This document shows, piece after piece, positions 16 to 26,071 of a stretch of 64,000 bases of DNA. The notes under the pieces were generated by a model that was not told the origin of the DNA, did no database searches, and saw nothing but the letters and a program-made list of their open reading frames with translations. Made by a program: the position numbers and the translations under genes. Source of the DNA: Halorarum halophilum (GTDB lineage Archaea > Halobacteriota > Halobacteria > Halobacteriales > Haloferacaceae); contig NZ_CP058529.1 of the NCBI RefSeq assembly GCF_013401515.1, positions 1,364,001 through 1,428,000 of the forward strand, read 5' to 3'. How positions within the stretch are numbered: the first letter of the stretch is position 1; each line of letters begins with the position of its first letter.

Positions 16-1416
16 CTACGTCTCTTCGATCAGGCCGCCGTTCCGGACGGCGTCGAAGAAGTTCGGCTCCTCGGCGGCGGTCTCGACCTGGCCGCCCTTC
101 AGCGCTATCTCGAGGCCGTCGAAGGTGTCAACGTGCGAGCGCGCCCGACAGAGCGGACTCCCGGGACCGACCGGAGCCGCGAACTCCAGCGCGTAGATTC
201 CCAATTCCGGGACGACGTACCCGCTGGTGTCGCCGCCGGCGACGCAGGCACGTTCCAGCCCGGTCTCAGCCAGCACGTCGCGCAAGATCCGCCCCTGCTG
301 TCGGCCGAGTCGCCGACCGACGCGCTCGTCGTCGATGCCGAGTTCCCGAGCGCGCGCGCTCGTCCGCTCGACGATCGAATCGTCGGGGCCGCGGGCCGAG
401 TAGACGATGGGGCTCTCGCCGCGCTCGATCGCGTCAGTCGCCGCCTCCACGGCTCGCGCTCTCGCGTCGTCGGCCGCGTCGGGGTCGACGAGCGCCGGCG
501 CGTCAAGCGGCAAGCCGACGAACCCGTGGTCGAGCGCCCACTCGATCTGGGCGGCGTTGACGGGCGATGCGCTCCCCGAGACGACGACCGTCCGATCGAC
601 GGCGTCGAGCGTCTGCGGCAGGTCGGGGTCGTCGACGACCCCGACCGACCGCCAGTGGTCGGCCAGCGCGTAGTTCAGCCCCGAGGAGCCGACGGCGAAG
701 AGCGGGCCGTCGTCCGGGCGCCGCTCCCAGAGGAGGCGGCCGACCGTCCGCTGGTGGTCGTGGTTCAGACCGTCGAAGACGACGACGTCGCTCTCCGCGA
801 GCGTGGATTCGAGCGCCCGGTCGAGGTCGTCGTCGGCCCCGCCGTCGAGGTGCCGGATCTCGAGGTTGCCGACGGAGCGGTCGGTCTGCTCGCCAAGGTG
901 GTCCACGAGGTCGGCCTCCCGCATCGGCGTCACCGGGTGGTCGCGCATCGTCGGGTGTCGATCGAGTCGGTAGGTCTCCCCGTCCACCGTCGCGAAGAGG
1001 TTGCCGAACAGGACGTAGCGCCCGCGCGGGGCGAGCGACGGCGCGGCGACGACGACGGGGACGAACGGCGAGTCGACGGCGCGCTGGCCGACGTCAAGGG
1101 CCCGACCGATGCTCCCCACCTCCGGAGAGGAGTCGAACGTCGAGCAGACCTTGTACTGGAATACGTCGGCGTCGAATCGACCGAGCGCCGCGAATGCGTC
1201 CGTGAGTTCCTCCTCCATCTCCGCCGGCGTCATGCTCCGACTGGTGCCGGCGACGCCGACTGCCCGCACCGCGTCGAACTCCTCCAGGTCCCCGGGCTCG
1301 GGTGGTTCGAGGAAGAGCACCGTCGGGACGCCGCAGAGCGACAACGCCTCCAGCACGTCGGTCGAGCCGGTGAAGTCGTCGCCGTAGTAGGCGAGGAGGA
1401 AGTCCGAACCGACCAT
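16..1416 (-). CDS. Four-carbon acid sugar kinase family protein (DUF1537, OiaK/OtnK-like)
   Basis: Predicted cytosolic ATP-dependent kinase of sugar acids or their keto derivatives. The 466 residues match the usual length of the family. The N-terminal substrate domain opens with the hallmark YYGDDFTGSTD (residues 10-20). The C-terminal nucleotide domain shows a GGDTSG loop (about 394-399) and the closing LKGGQ motif (about 439-443). It starts 1 base after the stop of the RuBisCO-like gene, so the two are almost certainly cotranscribed. In bacteria, DUF1537 kinases beside RuBisCO-like proteins phosphorylate 3-oxo-isoapionate (OiaK) in D-apiose catabolism; other members act on erythronate or threonate. 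The pairing favours an OiaK-like role, but the substrate is inferred from context. Confidence 0.9.
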   Translation of the reverse strand: MVGSDFLLAYYGDDFTGSTDVLEALSLCGVPTVLFLEPPEPGDLEEFDAVRAVGVAGTSRSMTPAEMEEELTDAFAALGRFDADVFQYKVCSTFDSSPEVGSIGRALDVGQRAVDSPFVPVVVAAPSLAPRGRYVLFGNLFATVDGETYRLDRHPTMRDHPVTPMREADLVDHLGEQTDRSVGNLEIRHLDGGADDDLDRALESTLAESDVVVFDGLNHDHQRTVGRLLWERRPDDGPLFAVGSSGLNYALADHWRSVGVVDDPDLPQTLDAVDRTVVVSGSASPVNAAQIEWALDHGFVGLPLDAPALVDPDAADDARARAVEAATDAIERGESPIVYSARGPDDSIVERTSARARELGIDDERVGRRLGRQQGRILRDVLAETGLERACVAGGDTSGYVVPELGIYALEFAAPVGPGSPLCRARSHVDTFDGLEIALKGGQVETAAEEPNFFDAVRNGGLIEET

Positions 1417-1417
1417 C

Positions 1418-2695
1418 TCAGCGACCGCTCCCGACGGGACCGTAGTATTCGATCGCGGTCCGCAGTTCCTCGTGGGTTTCGGCGTACTCCTCTAGCGGAA
1501 TCCCCCGCATCGCCGCCTCCCACCCCTGCTTGATGTGGGCCACCCCCGCGGCCGGCCCGTCGGGGTGCCCCAAGATGCCACCGCCGGCGAGGTACATCAG
1601 GTCCGGGTTGCCGAGCGCCTCGTAGGTTTCGGGGGCCTGCCCGGCCCACTGTCCGGACGAGAACACCGGCATCACCCTGTCGTCCTCGTCGGCGATGGGC
1701 GCCTGGCAGGCCCGCGCCGAGCGGACGACCGACGCGTCGGACTCGCAGAACTTGTTCCGGATCCCGTTCACGTGCATGTGGTCCGCGCCCGCGAGGCGGA
1801 AGAACGTGTGGTAGGCGGCGTAGTCGAATCCGAGGAGCGGATGTCGGGAGAGCGCCCCCCACCCGTTGCGGTGTGCGTGGATCGGCAGGTCGGCCTCCCG
1901 GCGCAGGTCCAGGAGGCCCGAGATGCCCACGCTGTTCATGCTCACCATCACGCAATTGCCCCCGGCGTCCTTCACGGCGTCGTGGCGCTCGAGCATCTCG
2001 TGGACGCTCCCGGTGATGTTGCAGGCGTACATCACCTCCTGGCCGGTCTCGGCCTCGTGGTCGCGGACGACGTCCATGACCGCCTCGACGCGCTCCTCGA
2101 CCGGCGAGTACGGCGGATCGGCAATGAGTTCGTCGTCCTTCACGAAGTCCAGGCCGGCGTCGACGACCTCGGCGACGGTGTCGGCCGTCTCCGCGGGCGT
2201 GAGGCCCACGTTGGGCTTGACGATGGTGCCGATTATCGGGCGGTCCTCGACGCCGACAATCTCGCGGGTGCCCTCGATCCCGAACTGCGGGCCGGGGCAC
2301 GACCGAGTGAACGAGTCCGGGAGTTCGAGATCGAGGAGTCGGAGACCGGAGAACTGCCGCAACTCGAAGAGGTTGCCCGCGACCGTCGCGCGGAGGTTGG
2401 GCAGCGACGCGCCGACGTTCTCCGCGGGGAACGAGACGACGACCCGCGCCCGCCGGTACTCAGGATTCGCCGATCGCTCCGGCTCCGCCGCGCCGGGAAG
2501 CGACGGTTCGTCGGCCACGTCGAGTTCCACCAAATCCTCGACGCGTGCGCCGTGGCGCGCCTCCAGTTCCCCCGTCTCCCCCGGGACGTCGACGAACGTC
2601 CCCGAGGACTGTTCGCCTGCCATCGCGCTCGCCGCCTCGCGGAGGGGTCGGGCCGTCTCTATCAGGTACGTTGCCCTGAGGCGTTCGTCGCTCAC
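1418..2695 (-). CDS. RuBisCO-like protein (RuBisCO large-chain superfamily, OiaX/OiaT-like)
   Basis: A 425-residue RuBisCO large-chain superfamily member, first gene of a two-gene unit with the DUF1537 kinase. By eye, the equivalents of the RuBisCO catalytic residues are: K160 (K175 in plant numbering), the carbamylation segment K186-D-D-E189, the H275-R276 pair, H308, K315 and a GGG phosphate loop at 371-373. The second lysine of the IKPK motif is replaced (VKPN, residue 162), which argues against true CO2 fixation. In bacterial apiose pathways such proteins decarboxylate 3-oxo-isoapionate 4-phosphate (OiaX) or transfer/hydrolyse it (OiaT). This is the most economical role beside a DUF1537 kinase. 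A form III RuBisCO or an MtnW-type enolase is less likely from the residues and neighbours. Confidence 0.88.
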   Translation of the reverse strand: MSDERLRATYLIETARPLREAASAMAGEQSSGTFVDVPGETGELEARHGARVEDLVELDVADEPSLPGAAEPERSANPEYRRARVVVSFPAENVGASLPNLRATVAGNLFELRQFSGLRLLDLELPDSFTRSCPGPQFGIEGTREIVGVEDRPIIGTIVKPNVGLTPAETADTVAEVVDAGLDFVKDDELIADPPYSPVEERVEAVMDVVRDHEAETGQEVMYACNITGSVHEMLERHDAVKDAGGNCVMVSMNSVGISGLLDLRREADLPIHAHRNGWGALSRHPLLGFDYAAYHTFFRLAGADHMHVNGIRNKFCESDASVVRSARACQAPIADEDDRVMPVFSSGQWAGQAPETYEALGNPDLMYLAGGGILGHPDGPAAGVAHIKQGWEAAMRGIPLEEYAETHEELRTAIEYYGPVGSGR

Positions 2696-2755
2696 GGCTC
2701 CGTCACCATCCGTCGGGGATCGATAGCGATCCGACCGGTCTCTCGTTCCATGGCG

Positions 2756-2887
2756 TTACCGTATCCGTCGGTCCGCATTAAGTGCCCTCCACCGTCCCTG
2801 GTTGCCGTAGCCGAACACCGCCACCGGTCGACCGTCGAGGACGGACAGGTTGGCGTCCTCGTCGTGGGAGACCCTCGTCTCTGACAT
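2756..2887 (-). pseudogene. Ketol-acid reductoisomerase-like N-terminal remnant
   Basis: A 43-codon frame that begins with ATG and ends in TAA. Residues 9-37 read like the N-terminus of ketol-acid reductoisomerase (KARI): an acidic DEDANLSVLDG lead, then AVFGYGNQGR, the Rossmann dinucleotide loop, then ALN. Immediately after ALN the homology stops and the frame closes. Full KARIs are about 330 residues or more, so more than 85 percent is missing. It lies 60 bases upstream of the RuBisCO-like gene on the same strand. A KARI-like oxidoisomerase would be the enzyme expected before an OiaK/OiaX pair. It could conceivably be expressed as a short peptide, but it lacks any catalytic domain. The space between it and the next enolase contains a second copy of a VTFD-stop tail, suggesting local rearrangement. 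Confidence 0.7.
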
Positions 2888-2991: not shown

Positions 2992-4086
2992 TCAATCGAA
3001 GGTGACGAGGTGTTCCTCCTTCGCGTCGGGGTCGACGCGGTACCCGTGGCCTGGACGGTCCGGCAGGAGGACGGTGCCGTCCTCGATTACCGGGGACGGG
3101 TCGAGGAGCGGCCCCACGTCGTACTCGGGAATGTACTCGACGACGAACCCCGTCTGCGCGGCGCTGACGAGGTGCGCGCTGACGACGTAGTAGAAGTGCG
3201 TTGCCAGTGGGACGTCGTACGTCGCCGCGAGGTCGGCGACGCGCGTCGCGCCGGAGACCCCGCCCGCCCGGATCAGGTCCGGCTGGGCGACCTCCATGCC
3301 GCCGCGCTCCAGGAGGCGGATGAACTGCTCGGGGCGGTTCAGCATCTCGCCCGTCGCAAGCGGCGGCCCCGTCGCCTCCGCCACTCGCCGGTGGCCCTCG
3401 AGGTTGAACTCCGTGATGGGCTCCTCGACCCAGTCGACGCCGTGTTCGTCCATCGCCTCGACCGTCTCGATTGCCTCCGAGACGGTCCACGCCTGGTTGG
3501 CGTCAACGAAGACGTCGGCGTCGGAGCCGACCGCCTCGCGCACCTCGGCGACGCGGCGGGCCTCCTCCGCAGTCGACTTGTCGCCCACCTTCGTCTTGAA
3601 CGCGGTGAAGCCCTCGTCGGCGAATCCCCCGTGCAGCGCCCGGAGTTCGTCGAGGTCATGGTGGGCGTCCATGCTGGAGGCGTACGCCCTGACGCGGTCG
3701 TCGTCGCCGCCGAGGAGCCGGTAGAGCGGCTGCCCTGCGGCCTTGGCTTTGATGTCCCAGCAGGCGACGTCGATGGCGGCCCGGGGCCACGCCGACAGAC
3801 CCAGTTCGCCGTAGTAGACGGTTTGCGCCCGGAGCCGCTGCCGCAGTTCCTCCGTGGCGAAGGGGTCGGCGCCGACGACGAGGTCCCGGAACTGCGAGTC
3901 GACGAAGCGCTCCATCAGGTCGGGCGCGAAGCCGAGCGAGTTCATCCACCCCGTCCCGGTGTACCCCTCGTCGGTCTCCAGTTCCACGACGACGGTGTAC
4001 ATGTCGGTGATTTCGAGCCGCGAGTCGCCGACGACCCGGTCGAGCGGCTGGTGGAGCGTGTAGGTCTCGACGTCGGTGATCTCCAT
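2992..4086 (-). CDS. Mandelate racemase/muconate lactonizing enzyme family acid-sugar dehydratase
   Basis: Enolase-superfamily enzyme of 364 residues with an N-terminal capping domain (about 1-125) and a TIM-barrel. The MR-subgroup signature is complete: KTK at K164/K166, metal ligands D195 (FVDANQAW), E221 (VEEP) and E247 (ATGE), and a general base H297 in ATHFYY. Such enzymes abstract the proton alpha to a carboxylate and usually dehydrate aldonic or aldaric acids to 2-keto-3-deoxy acids. Substrate not determined; the KxK plus distal His arrangement resembles galactarate/talarate-type dehydratases. It is divergent from an SDR across 78 bases and lies upstream of the KARI remnant and the RuBisCO-like unit on the same strand. 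Confidence 0.88.
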   Translation of the reverse strand: MEITDVETYTLHQPLDRVVGDSRLEITDMYTVVVELETDEGYTGTGWMNSLGFAPDLMERFVDSQFRDLVVGADPFATEELRQRLRAQTVYYGELGLSAWPRAAIDVACWDIKAKAAGQPLYRLLGGDDDRVRAYASSMDAHHDLDELRALHGGFADEGFTAFKTKVGDKSTAEEARRVAEVREAVGSDADVFVDANQAWTVSEAIETVEAMDEHGVDWVEEPITEFNLEGHRRVAEATGPPLATGEMLNRPEQFIRLLERGGMEVAQPDLIRAGGVSGATRVADLAATYDVPLATHFYYVVSAHLVSAAQTGFVVEYIPEYDVGPLLDPSPVIEDGTVLLPDRPGHGYRVDPDAKEEHLVTFD

Positions 4087-4164: not shown

Positions 4165-4941
4165 ATGACGAGCGAGTTCGAGCACGTCCCGGTTTCGGTC
4201 GCGGGGAAGACGGCGGTGGTCGTGGGCGGCACGAGCGGCATCGGGCGCGCGATCGCGCGGGCGTTCGCCGCTGACGGGGCGGACGTGGTCGCGTCCAGCC
4301 GGACCGAGGAGCGCGTCGAGGAGACGACCGCGGAACTCCGCTCGCTGGAGGCGTCCTCGGTCGCCGTCACCTGCGACGTCACCGACCGCGATTCGCTCGT
4401 CGCCCTCTACGAGGCGACCGCCGACGAGTTCGGGGGCGTCGACGTGCTGGTGAACTCCCCGAGCGCCATCGCCCGCCGGGGGCTGCTCGACGTGACCGAG
4501 GAGGAGTGGGCGTCCGTCCTCGGCGTGCAACTGACGGGGGTCGTCCGCACGTGTCAGACCTTCGCCCGTCGGATGGACGGGGGGAGCCTCGTCAACATCT
4601 CGTCGCTCTCGTCCGTCGTGACGATGGCGGACCTCGTCGCCTACTCGACGGCGAAGGGGGCCATCGACGCGTTCACGCGCAACGCCGCCAAGGAGTTGGC
4701 CCCCGAAATCCGCGTCAACGCCATCCGACCCGGGTACGTCGCGACCCCCCAGACGGCGGACGCCTACGCCGAGGGGAGCTACCGGTACGAACGCATCCGC
4801 GAGCGCGCGCCGATGGGACGGATGGCCGACCCCGGGGAGATTGCCGGCGCGGCGATTTACCTCGCCAGCGACGCGGCGTCGTACACGACGGGGGAGATCC
4901 TCACCGTCGACGGCGGCTTCGCCGCGAGCGCCTTCGAGTAG
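4165..4941 (+). CDS. SDR family oxidoreductase with atypical NSPS motif
   Basis: Classical-type short-chain dehydrogenase of 258 residues. The cofactor loop is GGTSGIG (21-27) and the catalytic triad is S147, Y160 and K164 (YSTAK). The structural NNAG motif after beta-4 is replaced by NSPS (97-100), which is unusual for the family. The likely role is oxidation or reduction of a sugar, lactone or keto-acid intermediate with NAD(P). ATG at 4165 was chosen because it gives a normal SDR N-terminus and leaves 78 bases for divergent promoters; a much longer upstream frame is an antisense shadow of the enolase gene. The stop abuts the convergent enolase pseudogene. Confidence 0.88.
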   Translation: MTSEFEHVPVSVAGKTAVVVGGTSGIGRAIARAFAADGADVVASSRTEERVEETTAELRSLEASSVAVTCDVTDRDSLVALYEATADEFGGVDVLVNSPSAIARRGLLDVTEEEWASVLGVQLTGVVRTCQTFARRMDGGSLVNISSLSSVVTMADLVAYSTAKGAIDAFTRNAAKELAPEIRVNAIRPGYVATPQTADAYAEGSYRYERIRERAPMGRMADPGEIAGAAIYLASDAASYTTGEILTVDGGFAASAFE

Positions 4942-6323: not shown

Positions 6324-7109
6324 ATGAGCGGACGATTCGACGGCGAGACTGCCATCGTCACGGGGTCTAGCAAGGGCATCGGCATGTCGATCGCCAAAGC
6401 GCTGGCCCGGGAGGGCGCGAACGTAGTCACGAACTCCCGCTCCCACGAGCGAGCGGAGGCGGCCGCAGAGGAGATAGCCGCCGAGGTCGACGGCGCGTCG
6501 ACGCTCCCCGTCGAGTGCGACGTGACCGACCCGGACTCGGTGTCGGCGCTCGTCGACGCGACGGTCGAGGAGTTCGGCCGCCTCGACGTGATGGTGAACA
6601 ACGCCGGGATGACCATCATCGACCCCGCCGAGGAGATGGCTCCCGAGGACTGGCGACAGGTGATAGACGTCGACCTCTCGGGCGTATTCTACGGGTCGCA
6701 GGCCGCGGGCCGGCGGATGATAGAACGGGGCGACGGCGGCGCGATAGTCAACGTCTCCAGCATGATGGGGTCGATGGGGCTCCACATGCGAACGCCGTAC
6801 TGTGCGGCTAAGGGCGGCGTCGACAACCTCACCCGGACGCTAGCGGTCGAGTGGGCCGAACACGGGGTCCACGTCAACGCGCTTGCCCCCGGGTACATCC
6901 GCACGGCCATCACCGACCAGTCGATGGAGTCGGCGGGCTACACCGAAGCGGAGGTACGGAACCGGACTCCGCTCGGGCGGTTCGGTTCCACGGAGGAGAT
7001 GGCGAACTGTGCGCTCTTTCTCGCCTCGCGGGACAACTTCGTGACCGGCGAGGTGCTCACGGCCGACGGGGGCTGGACGGCGTTCGCGTGGGGAAGCCGG
7101 GGTCGGTGA
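6324..7109 (+). CDS. SDR family oxidoreductase (sugar dehydrogenase-like)
   Basis: A 261-residue classical SDR with TGSSKGIG (13-20), NNAG (92-95) and the S146/Y159/K163 catalytic set (YCAAK). The C-terminal LTADGGWTAF is the usual SDR ending. The serine-lysine around the cofactor loop and CDVTD after beta-3 fit glucose/gluconate-type dehydrogenases. It probably oxidises a sugar or a sugar acid at one carbon with NAD(P). An AT-rich patch (about 6291-6302, gactattacaca) sits about 25 bases upstream, consistent with its own promoter. It converges on the aminotransferase gene, 4 bases apart. Confidence 0.9.
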   Translation: MSGRFDGETAIVTGSSKGIGMSIAKALAREGANVVTNSRSHERAEAAAEEIAAEVDGASTLPVECDVTDPDSVSALVDATVEEFGRLDVMVNNAGMTIIDPAEEMAPEDWRQVIDVDLSGVFYGSQAAGRRMIERGDGGAIVNVSSMMGSMGLHMRTPYCAAKGGVDNLTRTLAVEWAEHGVHVNALAPGYIRTAITDQSMESAGYTEAEVRNRTPLGRFGSTEEMANCALFLASRDNFVTGEVLTADGGWTAFAWGSRGR

Positions 7110-7113
7110 GGAT

Positions 7114-8427
7114 TCAGTCGACCTCAGCCGCGACGGCTGGGGCGACATCGCTGAGCGCCGCCTCGAACGCGTCGACGAGCGCGTCGATTTCGGCGTCGCC
7201 CATCGGGGTCGAGACGTTCATCAGCCCGCGCCTGGCGACGAATACCCCGCGATTCCGGAGCGCGAGGAAGAACTGTTCGGTCGGCCCGCCGCTCGACTCG
7301 TGGCCAGTCGTCGACGTGGCCGCGTCGACCACCTCCTCGTCAGTGAAGTGAACGTTGAAGAAGGAGCCGTCGCCGGTCACCTGCACCGGGAGGTCGGCGT
7401 CGGCGCAGACCTCGTCGAGTCGGTCGCGGGCGGTCGCGCCCAGATCGTTGATGCGGTCGATGGCGTCGGCGTCGAGCGCGTCGAGCGTGGCGAGGCCGCC
7501 CGCCATCGTCGTCGGGTTGCCGTTGAATGTCCCCGAGTGGGTGACCGACCCGCGGACGGGGTCGAACACCGCCATCACGTCCTCGCGGCCGCCGAACGCG
7601 CCGCACGGGAGGCCGCCGCCGATGAACTTCCCGAACGCCGTCAGGTCGGGCGTGACGCCGTATCGCTCCTGTGCGCCGCCCTCGGCGAGGCGGTACGTCA
7701 TGACCTCGTCGAACACCAGCAGCGTGTCGGCGTCCTCGGTCAGGTCGCGCGCGGTCTCGAGGTAGTCGTGGCGGGGTGGAATCACTCCCGCGTTGCCCAT
7801 GATGGGGTCGACGATGAAACACGCGAGGTCGTCGCCGAGGCGCTCGAACGCCTCGACCAGCGCGTCGGCATCGTTGAACGGGACGGTCGACACCCGCTCT
7901 TCGACGTTCCGTGGTATGCCGGGGTTCTCCCGACCGTCGCCGGTGACGCCGACGAGTACCGTGTCGTGGGTGCCGTGGAACGCGCCGTCGAGTTTGAGGA
8001 CGTGGTCGTTCCCAGTGTGGGCGATGGCGGCCCGGACGGCGTTCATCGTCGCCTCCGTACCCGAGTTGGCGAACCGGACCGACTCGACCGACGGCGTCCG
8101 CTCGACGATCCGTTCGGCGAGGTCGGTCGCCTCGCGCGTCGGTGCCGCGAAGCCGTTGCCGCGGGCGAACCGCTCAGTGACCGCCTCGACGACCGCGGGC
8201 GGCGCGTGGCCGAGGACCGCCTGCGTGTAGTTGTTGAGGAAGTCGAGCAGCTCCTCGCCGTCGGCCGTCGTCAGCGTACACCCCGACGCCTCCTCGACGA
8301 ACGTCGGGTATGGGTCGAAGTACGTCACCTCGCGCGTGTCGCCGCCGGGCATGACGGCGCCCGCCTCCTCGAACAGCCGCCGCGACTCCGGCGTCCTCCG
8401 CTCGTACTCCTCCGTGAGGTCTGACAT
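7114..8427 (-). CDS. Class III aminotransferase, glutamate-1-semialdehyde aminomutase-like
   Basis: PLP-dependent fold-type I enzyme of 437 residues. SGTEA (122-126) binds the PLP phosphate, D240-E241-V is the pyridine-nitrogen site and K267 in FGKFIGGG is the Schiff-base lysine. The LPCGAFGG stretch after the lysine matches GSA aminomutase-like proteins. The setting among sugar-acid enzymes argues that this is a paralogue acting on a keto or aldehyde intermediate rather than the tetrapyrrole enzyme. ATG 8427 (MSDLTEEYERRT) gives the family-like N-terminus; the frame continues further upstream across the divergent promoter region and was not used. Confidence 0.88.
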   Translation of the reverse strand: MSDLTEEYERRTPESRRLFEEAGAVMPGGDTREVTYFDPYPTFVEEASGCTLTTADGEELLDFLNNYTQAVLGHAPPAVVEAVTERFARGNGFAAPTREATDLAERIVERTPSVESVRFANSGTEATMNAVRAAIAHTGNDHVLKLDGAFHGTHDTVLVGVTGDGRENPGIPRNVEERVSTVPFNDADALVEAFERLGDDLACFIVDPIMGNAGVIPPRHDYLETARDLTEDADTLLVFDEVMTYRLAEGGAQERYGVTPDLTAFGKFIGGGLPCGAFGGREDVMAVFDPVRGSVTHSGTFNGNPTTMAGGLATLDALDADAIDRINDLGATARDRLDEVCADADLPVQVTGDGSFFNVHFTDEEVVDAATSTTGHESSGGPTEQFFLALRNRGVFVARRGLMNVSTPMGDAEIDALVDAFEAALSDVAPAVAAEVD

Positions 8428-8527
8428 GCGCAACCAGTTCGTCGAGCGAGCACAAAGCGTTGTTCCCCGGTACCACTTGACACGGAATCGAACACGGTTA
8501 TTAGTCTCCCCACCGACGTCCGCTCGA

Positions 8528-9661
8528 ATGAGCGACGTTACCGTTGACTCGGTGGAAGCCATCGGCGTGTGCGCACCGACCGACGAGCCGTTCGGCTACG
8601 CGCAGTCGTGGGTCGACGAGCGGACGGCGACGCTGGTTCGCGTCGAGGCGAGTGACGGCACCGTCGGGTGGGGCGAGTGCTGGGGCCCCGTCGAGGGGAC
8701 CGGCGATGTCGTCGAGTCCGTGCTCGCCCCGCATGTCGTTGACGAGAACCCACTCGAAGTCGAGCGACTCTACGACCGGCTCTACGACGTGGGGCGGGCG
8801 ACGTACCAGACCATCGTGCCCCTGCCGGCGATCAGCGGCCTCGACATCGCGCTGTGGGACCTCGCGGGGAAGCTACAGGGCGTGTCTACGGCGACACTGC
8901 TCGGCGGCCGGCGGCGCGAGTCGATTCGGCCCTACGCCACGGGCCACTACTTCAAGCCCGTCGACGATCTCGAGGAGCAGTACGACCGCATCGCGGCGGA
9001 GGCGCGGACGAACGCGACCGAACTCGGCGCGGTCAAACTGAAGGTCGGCCTCGAACTGCTCGGCTACGGCCCCCGGGAGGACGTCGAACTCGTCCGCCGC
9101 GTCCGGGAGGCAGTCGGCCCGAAGACGACGATGATGGTCGACGCCAACTACGCCTACGACCGGCGGGACGCTCGTCGGGTCGGCCGCGAACTCGAATCGC
9201 TCGATGTGGAGTGGTTCGAGGAGCCAGTCCAGCCGGAGGACCTCGAGGGGTACGCGGAGCTACGCGAGACGCTCGAGGTCCCCGTCGCTGGTGGGGAGTG
9301 TCACACGCCGGCCGAGTTCGACCGTCTTCTGGAGACGCACGCCGTCGACGTCGCCCAGCCGGACGTCTGCATCGTTGGCGGCCTGACGCCGGCCCGCCGC
9401 ATCGCGCGGCGGGCGCGCGACCACGGCGTCTCGCTCGTGCCGCACGTGTGGGGGACGTCCGTCAGTCTCGGGGCGAGCCTTCAGCTCGTCGCCACGCTCG
9501 ACGGCCGGCCGTGGCTGGAGTTCGACCGATCGTCAAACCCGCTCCGCGAGGAACTGGCCGCGGAATCGTTCGCCGCGGAGGACGGTCGCGTGTCGATCCC
9601 GGACGATCCGGGTCTTGGGGTGGACCTCGACGCCGACGCGATCGACCGGTACCGCGCGTAG
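8528..9661 (+). CDS. Mandelate racemase/muconate lactonizing enzyme family protein
   Basis: Enolase-superfamily protein of 377 residues. Motifs: K170-L-K172 on strand 2, metal ligands D205 (MVDANYAYD), E231 (WFEEP) and E257 (GGECHT), and H306 in PHVWGTSVSLGA as the second base. The GECHTP and PHVWGT motifs recur in acid-sugar dehydratases and racemases of the MR subgroup. Likely reaction: dehydration of an aldonate to a 2-keto-3-deoxy acid. It is followed 31 bases later by a second, only distantly similar enolase gene, forming a two-gene unit, and is divergent from the aminotransferase gene over 100 bases that include an AT-rich ggttattag box. Confidence 0.88.
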   Translation: MSDVTVDSVEAIGVCAPTDEPFGYAQSWVDERTATLVRVEASDGTVGWGECWGPVEGTGDVVESVLAPHVVDENPLEVERLYDRLYDVGRATYQTIVPLPAISGLDIALWDLAGKLQGVSTATLLGGRRRESIRPYATGHYFKPVDDLEEQYDRIAAEARTNATELGAVKLKVGLELLGYGPREDVELVRRVREAVGPKTTMMVDANYAYDRRDARRVGRELESLDVEWFEEPVQPEDLEGYAELRETLEVPVAGGECHTPAEFDRLLETHAVDVAQPDVCIVGGLTPARRIARRARDHGVSLVPHVWGTSVSLGASLQLVATLDGRPWLEFDRSSNPLREELAAESFAAEDGRVSIPDDPGLGVDLDADAIDRYRA

Positions 9662-9692
9662 TTTGATAGGTGGAGCACCCGTAGCCGGCGAC

Positions 9693-10772
9693 GTGACGCG
9701 CGTAACCGACGTCGACGTCAACCTGTACGGCGTCCCGAATGAGGAATCGCTGGACGACGCAACCCAATCGTTCGACGAACTCGAACTGGTCGTCGTCGAT
9801 GTGGAGACCGACGACGGACCTGGGATGGGATTCACGCACACGATCGGCGAAGGTGGGTCGGCGGTCCGCGAGTTCGTCGAGACGACGCTCGCCCCGGTCC
9901 TCGTCGGGGGGACGGCCGCCCCGCGGGTTGCCCGCGACCGGATACGGGCGGCGACGACGTACGTCGGCCGCGAGGGCGTCTCCGAACTCGCCGTCTCCGC
10001 CATCGACATCGCGCTCTGGGACGCGCTGGGGCGTCGCCTCGACGCCCCGCTGTACGAACTCGTCGGCGGCGAGCGCCGCGAGGTGCCAGCCTACCAGACG
10101 CACGGCGGGTGGCTCCAGTACGACACCCACGAACTGGTCGAGAACGCCCACGACGCCGCCGAACGCGGCTTCGCCGGGATGAAGATGAAAGTGGGCAGGG
10201 GCCACGCGGAGGACGCAGAGCGCGTCCGCGCGGTCCGGGAGGCGCTGCCGGACGGGATGGACCTCATGGTCGACGCCAACTGTGCGTACACGGTTCCCGA
10301 GGCGCGACGGTTCGCCAGACACCTCGGGGCCGTCCCGCTCGACTGGCTGGAGGAACCGCTCGACAAGGGGGACTTCGCCGGTCACGCCGACCTCCGGGAC
10401 CGGATCGCCGTGCCGGTCGCGCTCGGCGAGAACCTGTTCAACGAGACGCAGTTCAAGCAGGCGATGGCGCTCGGCGCGGCGGACGTCCTCCAGCCCGACG
10501 TCACCCGCGTCGGCGGCGTCTCCGCGTGGCTCGCCGTCGCGCATGCGGCCCGGACGTGGGACCTCCCCGTGTCGCCGCACTTCGTCGAACCGCTGCACGT
10601 CCACCTGGCGACGGCCTTCGACAACGTCCCCTACATCGAACACCACTCGACGGTGCTCGACAGCGTGATGGAGACGCCACTGGAACCCGTCGAGGGGGCG
10701 TTCACGCCGCCGGACGATCCGGGACACGGCATCCGGTTCGAGGGGCTGGAGACCTACCGGAAGGACGACTGA
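9693..10772 (+). CDS. Mandelate racemase/muconate lactonizing enzyme family protein (GTG start)
   Basis: Second enolase of a tandem pair, 359 residues from GTG 9693 (the GTG encodes the initiator; next residues TRVTDVDVNLYG). Motifs: K164-M-K166, D194 (MVDANCAYT), E220 (WLEEPL), E246 (LGENLF) and H296 (SPHFVEPLHVHLA). An ATG at 9615 would extend it 26 residues into the upstream gene and gives non-family sequence, so the GTG is preferred. It shares only motif-level similarity with its neighbour, so the pair is not a recent duplication. Probable MR-subgroup sugar-acid dehydratase or epimerase; substrate unknown. Converges on the ABC importer operon. Confidence 0.86.
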   Translation: MTRVTDVDVNLYGVPNEESLDDATQSFDELELVVVDVETDDGPGMGFTHTIGEGGSAVREFVETTLAPVLVGGTAAPRVARDRIRAATTYVGREGVSELAVSAIDIALWDALGRRLDAPLYELVGGERREVPAYQTHGGWLQYDTHELVENAHDAAERGFAGMKMKVGRGHAEDAERVRAVREALPDGMDLMVDANCAYTVPEARRFARHLGAVPLDWLEEPLDKGDFAGHADLRDRIAVPVALGENLFNETQFKQAMALGAADVLQPDVTRVGGVSAWLAVAHAARTWDLPVSPHFVEPLHVHLATAFDNVPYIEHHSTVLDSVMETPLEPVEGAFTPPDDPGHGIRFEGLETYRKDD

Positions 10773-10823
10773 GGCCGGCGGACGGGAAAAACGGACGCCA
10801 GGTCGCGTGAGACGACCGGCGCC

Positions 10824-12041
10824 TCAGTTAGTGACGTTCTCGCCGGTCACGTCGTCGAAGAGGTGGATCTTGTCCAGGTTGGCCACGAGCGTGACCACCT
10901 CGTCCTCCTCGATGGTGCTTTCGGGTGAGACGCGGGCGGAGAACTCGGTGTCGAGGTCGTCCGGTGCGTCGGGGTCGGTGAGCGTCAGGAACTTGTCGGA
11001 GCCCATCGGCTCGATGAGGCGGACGTACGCCTCGAAGGTGTTCGACTCGCCGACCCGCTCGTCGGCAACCTCGGCGTCGTGGATGTCCTCGGGCCGGAGT
11101 CCCAGCGTCAGGGCGTCCCGGTCACCATCCCACGACTCGACGGCAGCCGACAGGTCGTCCGGAAGCCCGAAGTCGAAGAGCGACGATTCGGCGAACTGCC
11201 GGTCGCCCGCCTCCCTGACGTCGACGTCGAAGAAGTTCATCGGCGGTTCGCCGATAAAGCCGGCGACGAACTGGTTCGTCGGATTGTCGTACAGGTGCTG
11301 GGGCGGGTCGACCTGCTGGAGTTTGCCGTCGTTCATCACGGCCACGCGGTCGCCGAGCGTCATCGCCTCGGCCTGGTCGTGCGTGACGTAGATGGTGGTC
11401 TTGCCGACGCGCTTGTGCAGGTCATTGAGTTCGGTCCGCATCTGCACCCGTAGCTTCGCGTCGAGATTCGACAGCGGTTCGTCCATGAGGAAGACCGACG
11501 GTTCGCGGACGATGGCGCGCCCGAGGGCGACGCGCTGCTGCTGGCCGCCCGACAGCGCCCCCGGCTTGCGGTCGAGCAGGTCCGAGATGCTGAGCAGGGT
11601 TGCCGCTTCTTCGACGCGACGGTCGATCTCCTCCTGGGGGAACTTCCGAACGTCGAGGGGGAACGCAAGGTTCTCGCGTACCCGCATGTGGGGGTAGAGC
11701 GCGTAGTTCTGGAACACCATCGCGATGTCCCGCTGGCGGGGGTCGAGCCCGGTCACGTTCATCTCCTCGATGACGATGCTGCCCTCCGTCGGCTCCTCGA
11801 GACCGGCGACGGTTCGGAGCGTCGTGGTCTTTCCACATCCCGACGGGCCGACGAGCACGAGGAACTCGCCGCGGCGGACGTCTATCGAAACGTCGTCCAC
11901 GGCGACCACGTCCGTCCCGTCGCTATCCTGGAATATCTTCGTCAGCCCGACGATGCGGACGTTGATGTCCGGCCCCGCGGTGTCGGGGGCGGACTCCTCG
12001 TCCGCGGTCGAGGGTTCCGTTTGTGAGGTTGTATCGGTCAT
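10824..12041 (-). CDS. CUT1-family sugar ABC transporter ATP-binding protein (MalK/UgpC-like)
   Basis: Last gene of a four-gene importer operon (binding protein, two permeases, ATPase). Motifs: Walker A GPSGCGKTT (65-73), Q-loop Q111, signature LSGGQQQR (163-170), Walker B FLMDEP (184-189), switch H221. The C-terminal third (about 265-405) is the TOBE/OB regulatory extension typical of MalK-like proteins, with GLRPEDI and a closing DKIHLFDDVTGENV. The 405-residue length is usual apart from an acidic 25-residue N-terminal extension. It energises uptake of a mono- or oligosaccharide or sugar acid across the cytoplasmic membrane. Confidence 0.93.
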   Translation of the reverse strand: MTDTTSQTEPSTADEESAPDTAGPDINVRIVGLTKIFQDSDGTDVVAVDDVSIDVRRGEFLVLVGPSGCGKTTTLRTVAGLEEPTEGSIVIEEMNVTGLDPRQRDIAMVFQNYALYPHMRVRENLAFPLDVRKFPQEEIDRRVEEAATLLSISDLLDRKPGALSGGQQQRVALGRAIVREPSVFLMDEPLSNLDAKLRVQMRTELNDLHKRVGKTTIYVTHDQAEAMTLGDRVAVMNDGKLQQVDPPQHLYDNPTNQFVAGFIGEPPMNFFDVDVREAGDRQFAESSLFDFGLPDDLSAAVESWDGDRDALTLGLRPEDIHDAEVADERVGESNTFEAYVRLIEPMGSDKFLTLTDPDAPDDLDTEFSARVSPESTIEEDEVVTLVANLDKIHLFDDVTGENVTN

Positions 12042-12129
12042 GGTGTCATCTCCTTTGGTATCTCTGGATTCGACTGATAATCGGTACGGCTACTGGTCGG
12101 TCGTTCCGGTCGGAGGTGAAAGGAGGAGG

Positions 12130-13008
12130 TCATTCTCCTTTCATCGCCCCCGCTGTCAGCCCGCTCACGATGTACTGCTGGAAGAACAGTACGACGAGGA
12201 CGGTCGGGATGATGGCGAGCACCGCCGCGGCGCCCATCTGGGCCCACGAGATGTTCACCTCGCCGACGAAGTCGTACACTGCGACCGAGATAGGTCGGGA
12301 CGCCAGCGTGCTCGAGATCATGAACGAGAAGAGGAACTCCCGCCACGAGTAGAGGAAGGTGAGGATACCGACGGCGGCGACGCCTGGCATCGCCAGCGGA
12401 ACAACGACCCTCCGGAACGCCTGTAGCTGCGTGCAGCCGTCAACGAGCGCGGATTCGTCGATCTCCTTCGGGATGGAAATGAAGAAGTTCCGCATGATGT
12501 AGATCATCAGGGGCAACCAGAGGTACACCTGGGCGAGGATGATTCCGGTGCGGCTGTTGAGCAGGCCGAACGCGGACAGTCCCTGGAAGTAGGGAATGAT
12601 GATGCCGATCGGCGGGAACAGCCGCGAGAAGATGACGCCGATGAAGATGGCGTTGTCGAACCGGAAGCGGAAGCGACTGAACGCGTAGCCGGCCGGGATC
12701 GAGAGCACCATCACGATGGCGGTCGTCGTTGTCGAGATGATGGCGCTGTTGAGCAGCGCCCGCCAGTATCCTTCTCGAATCACTACCAACTGGTACGCCT
12801 GGAACGTGAACTCCTCGGGGAGGTACGTCGGCGAGAACACCCCGTTGGGCGTCTTGAACGACGTGAGGCTCATCCAGAAGATCGGCACCAGGACGGAGAG
12901 CACCGTAAAGACCAGTACGGCGTGGACGATGTACGGTCCCTCGATGACGTTCCAGAACGCCTGTCTTTTTTCGTAGCTGATTCGCTCGTAGCTCTCCTCG
13001 GTGCTCAT
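12130..13008 (-). CDS. Carbohydrate ABC transporter permease (MalG-like)
   Basis: A 292-residue integral membrane subunit with about six hydrophobic segments. The cytoplasmic EAA loop that docks on the ATPase is visible as EIDESALVDGCTQLQAFRRV followed by VPLAMPG. One extended N-terminal segment precedes the first membrane helix (VLVFTVLSVLVPIFWM). It lies 64 bases after the MalF-like gene and 88 bases before the ATPase gene on the same strand. It forms the translocation pore with the other permease. Confidence 0.93.
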   Translation of the reverse strand: MSTEESYERISYEKRQAFWNVIEGPYIVHAVLVFTVLSVLVPIFWMSLTSFKTPNGVFSPTYLPEEFTFQAYQLVVIREGYWRALLNSAIISTTTTAIVMVLSIPAGYAFSRFRFRFDNAIFIGVIFSRLFPPIGIIIPYFQGLSAFGLLNSRTGIILAQVYLWLPLMIYIMRNFFISIPKEIDESALVDGCTQLQAFRRVVVPLAMPGVAAVGILTFLYSWREFLFSFMISSTLASRPISVAVYDFVGEVNISWAQMGAAAVLAIIPTVLVVLFFQQYIVSGLTAGAMKGE

Positions 13009-13072
13009 CGGGGATCACGCCCCGCGAGCAGGCCGTCGTGGGTCGTCATTTGGTGACTGTTACACATCGTGA

Positions 13073-14020
13073 TCACTCCTCTATCCGTTCGAGTACCACG
13101 GTCACGTAGAAGATGGCGAGGATGACGGTGACCGCGACCAGGAATACGGCGATGGCCGACCCGTACCCGAAGTCCAGTTTTACCATCCCCTCGCGGTAGA
13201 TGTAGATGGCTAGCGTCGTCGTGCGGACGCCAGGTCCCCCCTGCGTCATCGGATAGATGATGGAGAAGGCCCGGAAGGCGAACATCCACGAGATGAGCCC
13301 CACGATAGCCATGTAGGGCCGCAGGTACGGCAACGTTATCTTCCAGAACCGTTGCCACGTCGTCGCGCCGTCGATCTTCGCGGCGTCGTACATGTGCTGT
13401 GGAATCGACTGGAGTCCCGCGAGGAACACGACCATCGCGAACGGCATCCGCAGCCAAGCGTCGACGAACGTCACGAGGGGCAGCGCGAGACGCTTGTTAG
13501 CCAGGAGCGCGAGCGGGCTGGAGATTATCCCGAGGTCCATCAAAACCTGGTTCAACAGCCCGTACGGCTGTCCGACGAAAATCCAGTTCCACGTGAGCGC
13601 GACTACCGCGAGCGGGAGCGCCCACGAGAAGAGGATGATCGTCGTGTACGTCGACCGCAGCCGTTTGTTTACAACGTGATTGGCCGCGAGGGCGACGAGA
13701 AGCCCGGACGTGAACGAGAGCGCCAGCGAGCCGAACGAGTAGATCAGCGTCTGTTCCAGGTACGTGTAGAACACCGACGACGTGAACAGTTTCTCGTAGT
13801 TGTAGAGTGGGCGGAAGATGGGCTCCGGGATGCCCGGGGCCGTCAGGAATAGCGACTGATAAAACATCCAGAGAACCGGGTAGACGAAGATCGCCGTGAT
13901 GAGAGCCAGCGGCGGGCCGAGCAGGACGAGCACCACGTGGTCGTTGAGCCACGCGCTGATACGTCCCTTCAGGCCGTCCGACTGGGTACCAATACCGGTT
14001 GTTGGTGTTTCAGTGGCCAT
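13073..14020 (-). CDS. Carbohydrate ABC transporter permease (MalF-like)
   Basis: A 315-residue inner-membrane permease of the CUT1 family. About six membrane segments are visible, beginning with VLVLLGPPLALITAIFVYPV, and the EAA loop reads MYDAAKIDGATTWQRFWKIT with LPYLRP after it. It starts 29 bases downstream of the substrate-binding protein stop, consistent with an operon. A hydrophilic N-terminal stretch of about 30 residues precedes the first helix. Partner of the MalG-like subunit. Confidence 0.93.
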   Translation of the reverse strand: MATETPTTGIGTQSDGLKGRISAWLNDHVVLVLLGPPLALITAIFVYPVLWMFYQSLFLTAPGIPEPIFRPLYNYEKLFTSSVFYTYLEQTLIYSFGSLALSFTSGLLVALAANHVVNKRLRSTYTTIILFSWALPLAVVALTWNWIFVGQPYGLLNQVLMDLGIISSPLALLANKRLALPLVTFVDAWLRMPFAMVVFLAGLQSIPQHMYDAAKIDGATTWQRFWKITLPYLRPYMAIVGLISWMFAFRAFSIIYPMTQGGPGVRTTTLAIYIYREGMVKLDFGYGSAIAVFLVAVTVILAIFYVTVVLERIEE

Positions 14021-17626: not shown

Positions 17627-18721
17627 TCACCATGAGGTGATGGTCACGTCCTTCAGCGGCCGGTCGAACGGCACCGAGACGTGGCCGCCGGTGTAGTGGG
17701 AGATGTAGAAGCCCACGATGACCTCGACGGACCGGGCGGCCTCCTCGCCCGGCGAGCGGTTCTCGGCCTCGCCGTTCAGCAGGTCCGCGACATGCCGGGC
17801 GGCGTTGGCGAACGAACCGCGGTAGTCCTCGTCCCAGCGCCACGCGTCCTCGATGCCCGGAATCGGCTTCTCGACGTGAGCTCCGTCCTCGAGCGCCCAG
17901 TAGCGCCACTCGCCGTCGTCGTTGTTGATGTAGAGTTTCCCCTCAGTGCCGACTAACTGGAACGTCATCGACGAGATGTCGCGGGCGACCGTGCAGTCGA
18001 TGGAGACGAACGTGCCGTCGTCCATGACTACGAACCCGCCGCCGCCGGAGTCGTCGACCTCGCGGTCCCCCTCCAGGGCCGTCACGGCGTCGTTCTCGCC
18101 GTTGATGAAGCCGCTGACCCGCCGCGGCCGGGCGTCGAGTAGGTAGACCAGGGTATCGATGAGGTGCGTCGAGTTCCGGAGCAGTTCGCGGCGGAACTGC
18201 GCGGTGACGGCCTTCACCTCGCCGATGAGGCCGTCCCGGACGTGGTCGCGGAGCGTCCGGAGTTTGTCGGTGAAGCGGAACGAGTGGTTGATGACGAGTT
18301 CGGTGTCCGTCTCCGCGCAGACCTCGCACATCTCCTCTGCCTCCCCGACGCCCGAAGCGATGGGTTTCTCACACCAGATGACATCGGGGTCTGCCGACGA
18401 TCGCGCCGCGTCGAGGACGTGCTGGTGGTGGAGGAACGAGGGGGTACAGACCGAGACGACGTCCAGTTCTTCGGCCGCCAGCATCGCCTCGTGGCCGACG
18501 TAGCGGCGTTCCGGAGGGAGGTCCCACGCCTCGCCGAACGTGTCCAGTTTCCCCTCGTCGACGTCGGCGACGGCGACGAGGTCGATGTCCTCGGTCGCGT
18601 GGTAGCCGCCGGCGTGGCTCTCGGGGAACTTCCTGGTCCCGATGTCTTCCTCGTCGTGGAGGCCGAGGATGCCAAGTCCGGCGATGCCGCCCGCGCCGAT
18701 GATGCCCGCTCGGTACGTCAT
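17627..18721 (-). CDS. Gfo/Idh/MocA family oxidoreductase
   Basis: A 364-residue NAD(P)-dependent dehydrogenase. The N-terminal Rossmann loop is GAGGIAG (9-15), the family EKP motif reads WCEKPIA, and the alpha/beta C-terminal domain carries the substrate face around NSTHLID. Such enzymes oxidise or reduce sugars, inositols or their derivatives at a ring carbon. Starts at ATG 18721 (MTYRAGIIGAGG); a start two codons earlier is possible. It lies 74 bases after the first altronate-dehydratase-like gene on the same strand, so it may be the distal gene of that operon. Confidence 0.88.
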   Translation of the reverse strand: MTYRAGIIGAGGIAGLGILGLHDEEDIGTRKFPESHAGGYHATEDIDLVAVADVDEGKLDTFGEAWDLPPERRYVGHEAMLAAEELDVVSVCTPSFLHHQHVLDAARSSADPDVIWCEKPIASGVGEAEEMCEVCAETDTELVINHSFRFTDKLRTLRDHVRDGLIGEVKAVTAQFRRELLRNSTHLIDTLVYLLDARPRRVSGFINGENDAVTALEGDREVDDSGGGGFVVMDDGTFVSIDCTVARDISSMTFQLVGTEGKLYINNDDGEWRYWALEDGAHVEKPIPGIEDAWRWDEDYRGSFANAARHVADLLNGEAENRSPGEEAARSVEVIVGFYISHYTGGHVSVPFDRPLKDVTITSW

Positions 18722-25171: not shown

Positions 25172-25195
25172 ACGGGGACAGTGACAACTCGTCGC

Positions 25196-26071
25196 ATGAG
25201 CTGGGAATTCGAACGCGTTGCGGGCCCGTTCGAGACGACCGAGGGCCCCGTGTGGGACGGAGACGGCGTGCTGTTCACCGACATGCCGACGAGTCGGATC
25301 ATGCGGTACGACGCGACGACGGGCGGGTGCGAGACGTTCCGGACGGACACCGGCAACGCGAACGGGCTGAAACTCGGCCCCGACGGCGGGCTATACGCCT
25401 GTGAGATGGGCGGCCGCCGGGTCGTCCGCTACGAGGACGACGGCGGTGTCACGGTCGTCGCCGACGGGTTCGAGGGGGGACGACTCAACAGCCCGAACGA
25501 CCTCGCGTTCGACGCCGAGGGTCGCCTCTGGTTCACCGATCCCTTCTACGACACCGACTGGGTGGAGCACGGGGACGATCTGGACCTCGACCACCGGTCC
25601 GTCTACCGGGCGGACCCCGGTGACGACTGGACGCTCACCCGCATGACCCACGACACGACGAACCCCAACGGCCTCCTCGTCGCTCCCGACGACGGGACGC
25701 TATACGTCGCACAGAGCCGGTACGGCGAGGACAATGCTCGCGAACTCAGAGCGTACCCCATCGACGGCGACGAACTCGGCCCCTACGAGGTGTTGCACAA
25801 CTTCCACCCGCACCGCGGCATCGACGGGATGTGCCTCGACGAGGCGGGGAACGTCGTCGCCACCGCGGGGGCCGACGAGAGTGGCCCCGGGCCGATGCTC
25901 TACGTCTTCGCGCCGTCCGGGCGGGTGCTGGAGACCCACCCGGTTCCGGACCCCCGTCCGACGAACTGCTGTTTCGGCGGCGACGACCTGGGAACGCTCT
26001 ACCTGACCGGGTACGACGGGTGTCTGTACCGCGCCGAGACCGACCGGACCGGCTACCTCGGCGCGCCGTAG
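25196..26071 (+). CDS. SMP-30/gluconolactonase/LRE family protein
   Basis: A 291-residue six-bladed beta-propeller lactonase. Family features: EGPVWDGDGVLFTD with the metal-binding Glu, NANGLKLGPDGGLYACEMGGRRV, LNSPNDLAFDAEGRLWFTDP with the Asn-Asp pair, then TNPNGLLVAPDDGTLYV and GIDGMCLDEAGNVVAT for later blades. Expected reaction: metal-dependent hydrolysis of an aldonolactone made by a sugar dehydrogenase, giving the acid that the dehydratases use. ATG 25196 (MSWEFERVAGPF) is favoured by the promoter spacing; 25181 adds five residues. Confidence 0.9.
   Translation: MSWEFERVAGPFETTEGPVWDGDGVLFTDMPTSRIMRYDATTGGCETFRTDTGNANGLKLGPDGGLYACEMGGRRVVRYEDDGGVTVVADGFEGGRLNSPNDLAFDAEGRLWFTDPFYDTDWVEHGDDLDLDHRSVYRADPGDDWTLTRMTHDTTNPNGLLVAPDDGTLYVAQSRYGEDNARELRAYPIDGDELGPYEVLHNFHPHRGIDGMCLDEAGNVVATAGADESGPGPMLYVFAPSGRVLETHPVPDPRPTNCCFGGDDLGTLYLTGYDGCLYRAETDRTGYLGAP

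Follow-up and report, generated by a model that had tools for sequence, protein, structure and literature searches.

A stretch of 64,000 nucleotides from the haloarchaeon Halorarum halophilum (positions 1,364,001 to 1,428,000 of contig NZ_CP058529.1, i.e. C1:1364001-1428000 of a 4.28 Mb genome; hereafter the window) begins with genes for a DUF1537 kinase and a RuBisCO-like protein (RLP), and an intact gene of the PGDH_C family lies just outside it. It is rather probable that the RLP, the OiaK-like kinase and the PGDH_C-family protein, which resembles the oxidoisomerase ApnO, make up a catabolic cassette whose substrate is D-apionate or a closely related 2-C-branched sugar acid, with a last step of the OiaT type.

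In the proposed pathway the acid would enter the cell unchanged. ApnO would then oxidise it and shift its hydroxymethyl group to give 3-oxo-isoapionate, and this would be phosphorylated at C4 by the DUF1537 kinase. Finally the RLP, with its RuBisCO-type lysine and Mg site, would split the phosphorylated compound by transcarboxylation/hydrolysis into 3-phosphoglycerate and glycolate. The chemistry of the steps and the names of the products are those of the bacterial pathway, beyond the passages cited below; the substrates, the products, the direction of the RLP reaction and the entry as acid are predictions for the archaeon. A preliminary description of the window had proposed that this logic of oxidoisomerase, kinase and RLP exists, or once existed, in an archaeon. 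The margins between hidden Markov model scores, the synteny and the intact ApnO-like gene support the first; there is no need to invoke loss, since all three genes are intact.

The genes of the cassette

The RLP gene (1418-2695, minus strand) has a GTG start codon and encodes 425 amino acids (aa) that match PF00016 with 248.9 bits and PF02788 with 33.9 bits. A single base lies between its stop codon and the ATG of the kinase gene (16-1416, minus strand), the product of which (466 aa, of the DUF1537 or four-carbon acid sugar kinase family) matches PF07005 (182 bits) and PF17042 (109 bits). Both genes and their spacing are as the preliminary description had them. Upstream of the RLP gene, at 2756-2887 on the minus strand, there is a stub of 43 codons running from an ATG at 2887 to a stop codon, with the N-terminus of a ketol-acid reductoisomerase (KARI). 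Judged by their sequences the RLP gene, the kinase gene and the stub are real features and not chance open reading frames (ORFs). PF00016 has no match elsewhere in the genome, and the RLP is the sole RuBisCO-family gene found. A second match to PF07005 is found at C1:1304635; this DUF1537 kinase gene (C1:1304635-1305294, locus L008) is ~60 kb from the cassette, with a gene for an IclR-type regulator before it.

The kinase fits OiaK best. It scored 505 bits against the NCBIfam model for OiaK, compared with 191 and 54 bits against those for 3-oxo-tetronate kinase and D-threonate kinase, so that it is predicted to be a 3-oxo-isoapionate kinase and, on score, not an erythronate or threonate kinase.

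A search of the genome with the KARI_N profile gave a 26.2-bit match just beyond the window, and this is the PGDH_C-family gene (C1:1363075-1363935, minus strand, i.e. 65-925 bases before base 1 of the window). The gene is intact, encoding 286 aa from a TTG or 281 aa from the likely ATG, and starts 80 bp behind the kinase gene (95 bp with the ATG as start codon). Its product matches PF16896 with 184 bits, a family that we take to be linked with ApnO, and is thus a PF16896 protein encoded together with an OiaK-like kinase and an RLP. The nearest solved structures are 5t57 (E 6e-77) and 3c24.

An operon of Rhizobium leguminosarum encodes OiaX, a kinase, a PGDH_C-family protein, an ABC transporter, a Gfo/Idh/MocA dehydrogenase and a 620 aa protein, in that order. 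The same set is present in another order in a Microvirga operon. Shinella has a like set, but the stretch stops inside OiaX and has no kinase. The candidate for the apionolactonase ApnL in R. leguminosarum and Microvirga is a protein of 620-642 aa, and the ABC transporter of their operons is of the sugar type. The apiose cluster in a passage of PMC11747546, where growth on D-apiose is shown, comprises five enzymes, i.e. a dehydrogenase, a lactonase, an oxidoisomerase, a kinase and an RLP. Since we infer that these five map one to one onto the rhizobial set, our candidate for the D-apionate oxidoisomerase ApnO is the PGDH_C-family protein, which most likely has this role.

The KARI-like stub had been put forward as what is left of the oxidoisomerase. 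This was not borne out, for an intact PGDH_C-family gene is present behind the kinase, as in the rhizobial apiose operons. The stub as a working oxidoisomerase is ruled out, with only ~37 codons of KARI-like sequence and the intact gene nearby.

Class and reaction of the RuBisCO-like protein

Against NCBIfam models the RLP scored 508 bits with OiaX, 270 bits with form III RuBisCO and 202 and 157 bits with two MtnW models. A tree of 76 rows was calculated by a quick method, starting from 135 extracted RLP or RuBisCO ORFs and omitting 21 that were duplicate, partial or apparently frameshifted and 38 that were near-redundant. The RLPs of the apionate group lie on a long branch, apart from the form III RuBisCOs of haloarchaea, of which five were included. 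A single group (support 93) contains 14 of the 15 haloarchaeal RLPs, and the position of the last, at the base, is not resolved. The residues K175, K201, D203, E204, H294, R295 and K334 (RuBisCO numbering) are present in all 71 RLP rows. The fold family and the catalytic residues are thus common to the RLP and to form III RuBisCO or MtnW-type enolases, but it is extremely improbable that the RLP is one of these. Within its group the haloarchaeal proteins scored 607-958 bits, against 208 bits for the nearest other haloarchaeal match, the separating branch is long, K177 is replaced by Asn, and the context is that of sugar acids. Both classes are ruled out on score, and form III on the tree as well.

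At four further positions the named OiaX proteins have departed from RuBisCO. E60, N123, H327 and S379 have the RuBisCO letter in all 70 non-OiaX RLPs, including that of the window, whereas all five named OiaX are altered, carrying D, G, Q and G or C respectively. For this comparison the five named OiaX rows (two of them from R. leguminosarum) took the place of the single R. leguminosarum row of the tree.

These residues bear on whether the RLP could be a decarboxylase of the OiaX type, forming an erythrulose phosphate, which we regard as quite unlikely. OiaX is indeed the top-scoring curated model. However, the score is far below the cut-off of that model (NF042437, 700 bits), which the named OiaX of R. 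leguminosarum passes with 778 bits, and the four residues altered in every OiaX are unaltered in the window RLP. With the same model, the RLP encoded in the apiose-type operon of Microvirga ossetica, a non-OiaX protein 58.7% identical to the window RLP, scores 453 bits. The OiaX route presumably needs steps like those of triosephosphate isomerase (TIM) and RpiB; in the window's genome there is no match to the RpiB family, and TIM is present in a single copy. R. bangladeshense encodes OiaX together with TIM-like and RpiB-like genes, but a tblastn search with these two proteins found no other such locus among those collected, so that the isomerases accompany OiaX in one of the five OiaX loci read with their flanks.

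RLPs that act as transcarboxylase/hydrolase are named OiaT. According to a passage of PMC6302742 (citing Carter et al. 2018) the RLP of Agrobacterium K84 decarboxylates 3-oxo-isoapionate-4-phosphate, and that of Xanthobacter performs its transcarboxylation/hydrolysis. The window RLP is probably not OiaX and is most likely OiaT-like, by exclusion of OiaX. Cleavage of the OiaT kind is preferred over decarboxylation because the four RuBisCO residues are kept and RpiB is missing from the genome. In a Haloterrigena plasmid cluster, genes for pyruvate kinase and enolase stand between those of the kinase and ApnO, which makes a route from 3-phosphoglycerate.

We note that RLPs of sugar-acid catabolism are known from bacteria, and that this archaeal branch keeps the RuBisCO residues that OiaX has changed. 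Such an RLP, in a genome in which no further gene of the RuBisCO family was found, provides a natural test of the features by which an RLP decarboxylates or hydrolyses.

Distribution, gene partners and entry of the substrate

In a survey of 391 haloarchaeal genomes, that of the window included, this type of RLP was found in 10 and ApnO in seven (367-625 bits; next match 32 bits). The two occur together in six (G000, G026, G106, G192, G197 and G344 in our labelling; hypergeometric p 3e-10, kinship ignored). In five of these the genes are neighbours or at most ~9 kb apart, and in G344 they are ~47 kb apart on one contig. G122 has ApnO but no RLP, and G233, G264, G278 and G281 have the RLP but no ApnO. 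Halorubrum sp. CBA1125 and Halegenticoccus tardaugens have the triad of RLP, kinase and ApnO in the order and strand of the window; in Halalkalicoccus, Natrinema and H. salifodinae ApnO adjoins the kinase on the opposite strand. A plasmid collection contains eight records with more than 60% identity to the RLP, all haloarchaeal (among 60 of 366 records listed), of which at least five also match ApnO (among 60 of 251 listed) and three are plasmids of the surveyed genomes G197, G264 and G278. The patchy spread and the plasmid homes suggest transfer of the cassette.

The best 80 of 348 RLP loci of a genome collection (77 bacterial and three haloarchaeal) were also examined. In these stretches a kinase is present in 79, ApnO in 26 and ApnL or the dehydrogenase ApsD in 15, using tblastn thresholds that were set by eye (e.g. 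at least 38% identity for ApnO and 33% for ApsD). ApnL or ApsD is found in 13 of the 26 loci that have the PGDH_C-family gene and in two of the 54 that lack it (Fisher p 2e-6, kinship ignored). Could the same three enzymes and chemistry then serve a C2-branched or related sugar acid other than apionate, as a module for 3-oxo acids? The RLP and kinase pairs have varied partners, i.e. SDR, Asp/Glu racemase, TRAP transporter, HpcH/HpaI aldolase, or an FBA-FGGY-dehydrogenase set, and the window's genome has no match to ApnL and Gfo/Idh/MocA proteins of only ~28% identity. By contrast, the window cassette does have its ApnO partner, and it is mostly the ApnO-bearing loci among these 80 that carry the apiose genes. 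We think a different acid a less likely substrate, though one to be taken seriously.

In the preliminary description flanking dehydrogenases and lactonases were thought able to supply the acid. Dehydrogenases are indeed present, with SDR genes at 4180-4941 and 6324-7109 (both plus strand); an SMP-30/gluconolactonase-like gene (25181-26071) is ~22 kb off, with no link to the cluster seen. ApnL has no match in the genome, using a query that as positive control matched four of four records, i.e. the one from which it was taken and three others, at 32-40% identity. An ApsD query gave 16 Gfo/Idh/MocA-type matches in the genome, the best-scoring of which is 28% identical; one is within the window (18188-18643) and none is beside the cassette. 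With no ApnL and no close ApsD orthologue found in the genome, growth on apiose itself is unsupported by the sequence. For the same reason, and because GntP or TRAP permeases are present in other haloarchaeal clusters, uptake of the unchanged acid is probable. This points to direct use of a branched acid of plant origin by haloarchaea. ABC systems are found further off, on both sides of the window cassette.

Several observations weigh against the assignment to apionate and to an OiaT-like last step. Both the RLP and the kinase lie below the 700-bit cut-offs of their best models (NF042437 and NF042436), although the kinase score is within range, since the kinases of two bacterial apiose-type operons are also below 700 bits (R. 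leguminosarum, encoded with a named OiaX, 479; Microvirga, 575). No ApnO model was among the NCBIfam matches, so that ApnO was identified by its family, its synteny and its homologues. The search for a named OiaT sequence to compare yielded none, leaving the class of the RLP to the exclusion of OiaX; moreover the OiaX row of the tree is long and nested among the bacterial non-OiaX RLPs, so that the latter are not a clade of known function. The lack of RpiB is weak evidence, because TIM and RpiB accompany OiaX at so few of the loci read. Here no fitting transporter gene adjoins the cassette; next to ApnO there is an AzlC-like gene (a weak match, 61 bits). Four of the 10 RLP-bearing haloarchaea have no ApnO, with SDR, ADH or Asp/Glu-racemase genes nearby, and many other pairs of RLP and kinase have no ApnO near them; the family may therefore handle other acids. 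Lastly, G122 has a kinase, ApnO and a DeoC/LacD aldolase but no RLP, and here the aldolase may stand in for the RLP. At this locus (L173, G122:C2:653000-672000) the order is OiaK-like kinase, ApnO, DeoC/LacD aldolase and GntP permease (7660-13110).

A number of other genes recur in these neighbourhoods, where PdxA-like, DHDPS-like, UspA-like, some Cpn60-like and DUF1537-like genes of haloarchaea were identified by eye, on the first residues of their products. Directly before the RLP, L093-L097, L138 and L140 encode a protein of 267 aa that contains an internal repeat (GSHGG...FNNAGIGKDDAGI), belongs to no confident Pfam family and has whole or partial relatives in the bacterial RLP loci L023, L040, L054, L061 and L063. 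An Asp/Glu-racemase-family gene accompanies RLP and kinase in both haloarchaea and bacteria (L014, L136, L093, L019, L027, L033 and L101); ApnO is within 8 kb only in L019, and is ~9 kb off in G026 (L136) and ~47 kb off in G344 (L014). An MBL-fold hydrolase, possibly a lactonase, is encoded near the RLP in two haloarchaea (L012, 4711-5649; L140, 6371-7252). For the MBL-fold gene that adjoins the RLP gene in Halorubrum CBA1125, no counterpart passed the filters in the stretch searched, i.e. the window and the 20 kb beside it. In two haloarchaea that belong to different families a weakly GH127-like gene is found close to ApnO (L174, 8009-9721; L176, 9993-11711), adjoining it in G026 and one gene further in G344. 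The contig of Natronoglomus mannanivorans (L014 and L176), with RLP and kinase ~47 kb from ApnO, also encodes alpha-L-rhamnosidases, an alpha-L-fucosidase and GH2 enzymes, a content that fits degradation of pectin-type plant material.

The KARI-like stub and the relation to known systems

The stub matches the NCBIfam KARI model with 27.1 bits (E 1.6e-6; whole-protein cut-off 336 bits) and Pfam KARI_N with 16.8 bits (cut-off 20.6 bits). It is thus a KARI N-terminus (NADPH-binding), as was first described, and not a complete catalytic gene, since it stops after 43 codons. Its likeness to KARI-type genes, in protein and DNA, extends over approximately the first 37 codons, followed by unrelated sequence and the stop. 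It was matched at 1e-6 in 41 genomes of the survey, where its closest relatives belong to a divergent paralogue, KARI2, and not to the canonical IlvC (for the four nearest, 62-65% over 34-38 aa).

Of the seven KARI2 genes that were read, that of G304 shares 53-75% identity with the other six. Identity to the IlvC of the window's genome is 39-42% throughout the seven, in all of which the active-site motif of IlvC, APK-x-PGH, has become APR-M-x-G. One KARI2 copy scores above the ilvC cut-off (258 vs 226 bits). Genes of this type may therefore be misnamed as ketol-acid reductoisomerase, and probably do something else; KARI2 serves to flag them. KARI2 loci with a sugar-acid context are L167, L168, L169, L170, L171, L172 and L175.

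The island around the stub is conserved. Next to the stub is ENS1, an enolase-superfamily sugar-acid dehydratase (2992-4086, minus strand), orthologues of which (79-80%) precede an intact KARI2 in two haloarchaea. In one of these, G355, the island is otherwise as in the window, with ENS1 at 79%, the two SDR dehydrogenases (4180-4941 and 6324-7109) at 67 and 80%, two further enolase-superfamily dehydratases (8543-9661 and 9690-10772, both plus strand, start codons approximate) at 75 and 77%, and an HpcH/HpaI aldolase at 70%; the intact KARI2 is behind ENS1, a small number of further genes separate it from the aldolase, and the cassette is absent. G304 has a row of ENS1 (80%), KARI2, aldolase (74%) and two Cpn60-like genes. 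The corresponding row of the window's genome is ENS1, KARI2 stub, RLP, kinase, ApnO and the AzlC-like gene, then the aldolase and two Cpn60-family genes. The pair of Cpn60/TCP-1-family genes beside the sugar-acid aldolase (L010, 10731-12320 and 12327-14045) has a like pair in G304 and a single counterpart in G355 (by eye). Since ENS1 and the aldolase are syntenic and the DNA likeness ends near codon 37, the cassette appears to stand in place of the body of KARI2, which may have been displaced as one event. The remnant had been taken for a part of the apionate pathway; it belongs instead to another family, whose place the cassette appears to have taken. None of the seven KARI2 genomes has this type of RLP.

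It is nevertheless conceivable, if rather doubtful, that KARI2 acts on the same imported branched sugar acid as ApnO, as an oxidoisomerase unrelated to it that runs the KARI reaction in reverse. In structure D-apionate corresponds to 2,3-dihydroxyisovalerate, which KARI forms, with a hydroxyl group added to each of the two methyl groups. A hint of a common substrate comes from the permeases. Across the 391 genomes, the three copies most like the GntP beside ApnO in Halalkalicoccus (77, 77 and 74%; next 67-68%) are those of G216 and G060, each of which adjoins KARI2, and that of G122, which follows the kinase, ApnO and DeoC/LacD aldolase genes. In a tree of nine selected rows these four GntP, KARI2-linked and ApnO-linked, are one clade with 100/100 support. 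G201 and G134, of the genus of G060, have a GntP of the other clade, and the 4.4 kb read there contain no KARI2; neighbouring genes, named by eye, match G060 on both sides in G201 and on one side in G134. The HpcH/HpaI aldolase is found in both ApnO-type and KARI2-type clusters, and one KARI2 locus shares an FBA-FGGY-dehydrogenase set with the RLP locus of Natronococcus (46-58%). The exchange seen in the synteny and the altered active-site motif of KARI2 are further hints. Against a shared substrate, the KARI2 loci of G060, G216 and G030 contain PdxA-like genes (by eye), the kinase of G060 fits the D-threonate model best, G030 has a DUF1537-like kinase (by eye), and neither the OiaK-like kinase nor the RLP is matched in any of the KARI2 stretches read.

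If KARI2 did share the substrate, the ApnO cassette would have replaced it at its own site, as a non-orthologous substitute. The stub would then be the remnant of the same function, a KARI-like oxidoisomerase later replaced by ApnO. This is compatible with the cassette reading proposed above, and the position of the cassette and the single GntP clade speak for it; yet the KARI2 stretches are devoid of kinase and RLP matches, and neutral insertion explains the stub equally well, so that we give it tentative standing only.

A literature search found no haloarchaeal apionate pathway in the titles and starts of abstracts listed, nor any match for a KARI paralogue in haloarchaea, in a coverage that includes few subscription journals; the excerpt of a paper on rhamnogalacturonan and haloarchaea (PMC10963439) makes no mention of apiose. 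The archaeal cassette, with entry at the acid, would be a new variant of the apionate pathway, its function predicted from sequence.

The chemistry of ApnO resembles the KARI reaction in reverse, and the stub is homologous to the N-termini of KARI. However, ApnO belongs to PF16896, and KARI2, at 39-42% identity to the IlvC of the genome, has altered motifs. The closest solved RLP is PDB 3nwr (440 bits, residues 2-419 of 425), listed as 'a rubisco-like protein' without function. Like the apiose pathway of Rhizobium and Agrobacterium with OiaK and OiaX, in the passages available from PMC6302742 and PMC11747546, the window has a PGDH_C oxidoisomerase, an OiaK-family kinase and an RLP encoded together. 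Unlike it, the cassette is archaeal, its RLP lacks the OiaX residue changes, and there is no RpiB, no match to ApnL, no close ApsD and no adjacent sugar ABC transporter. The Xanthobacter-type pathway with OiaT differs in its front-end enzymes, which were not found in the window's genome, but has the same presumed RLP reaction, and the related non-OiaX RLP of Microvirga ossetica is itself encoded in an apiose-type operon.

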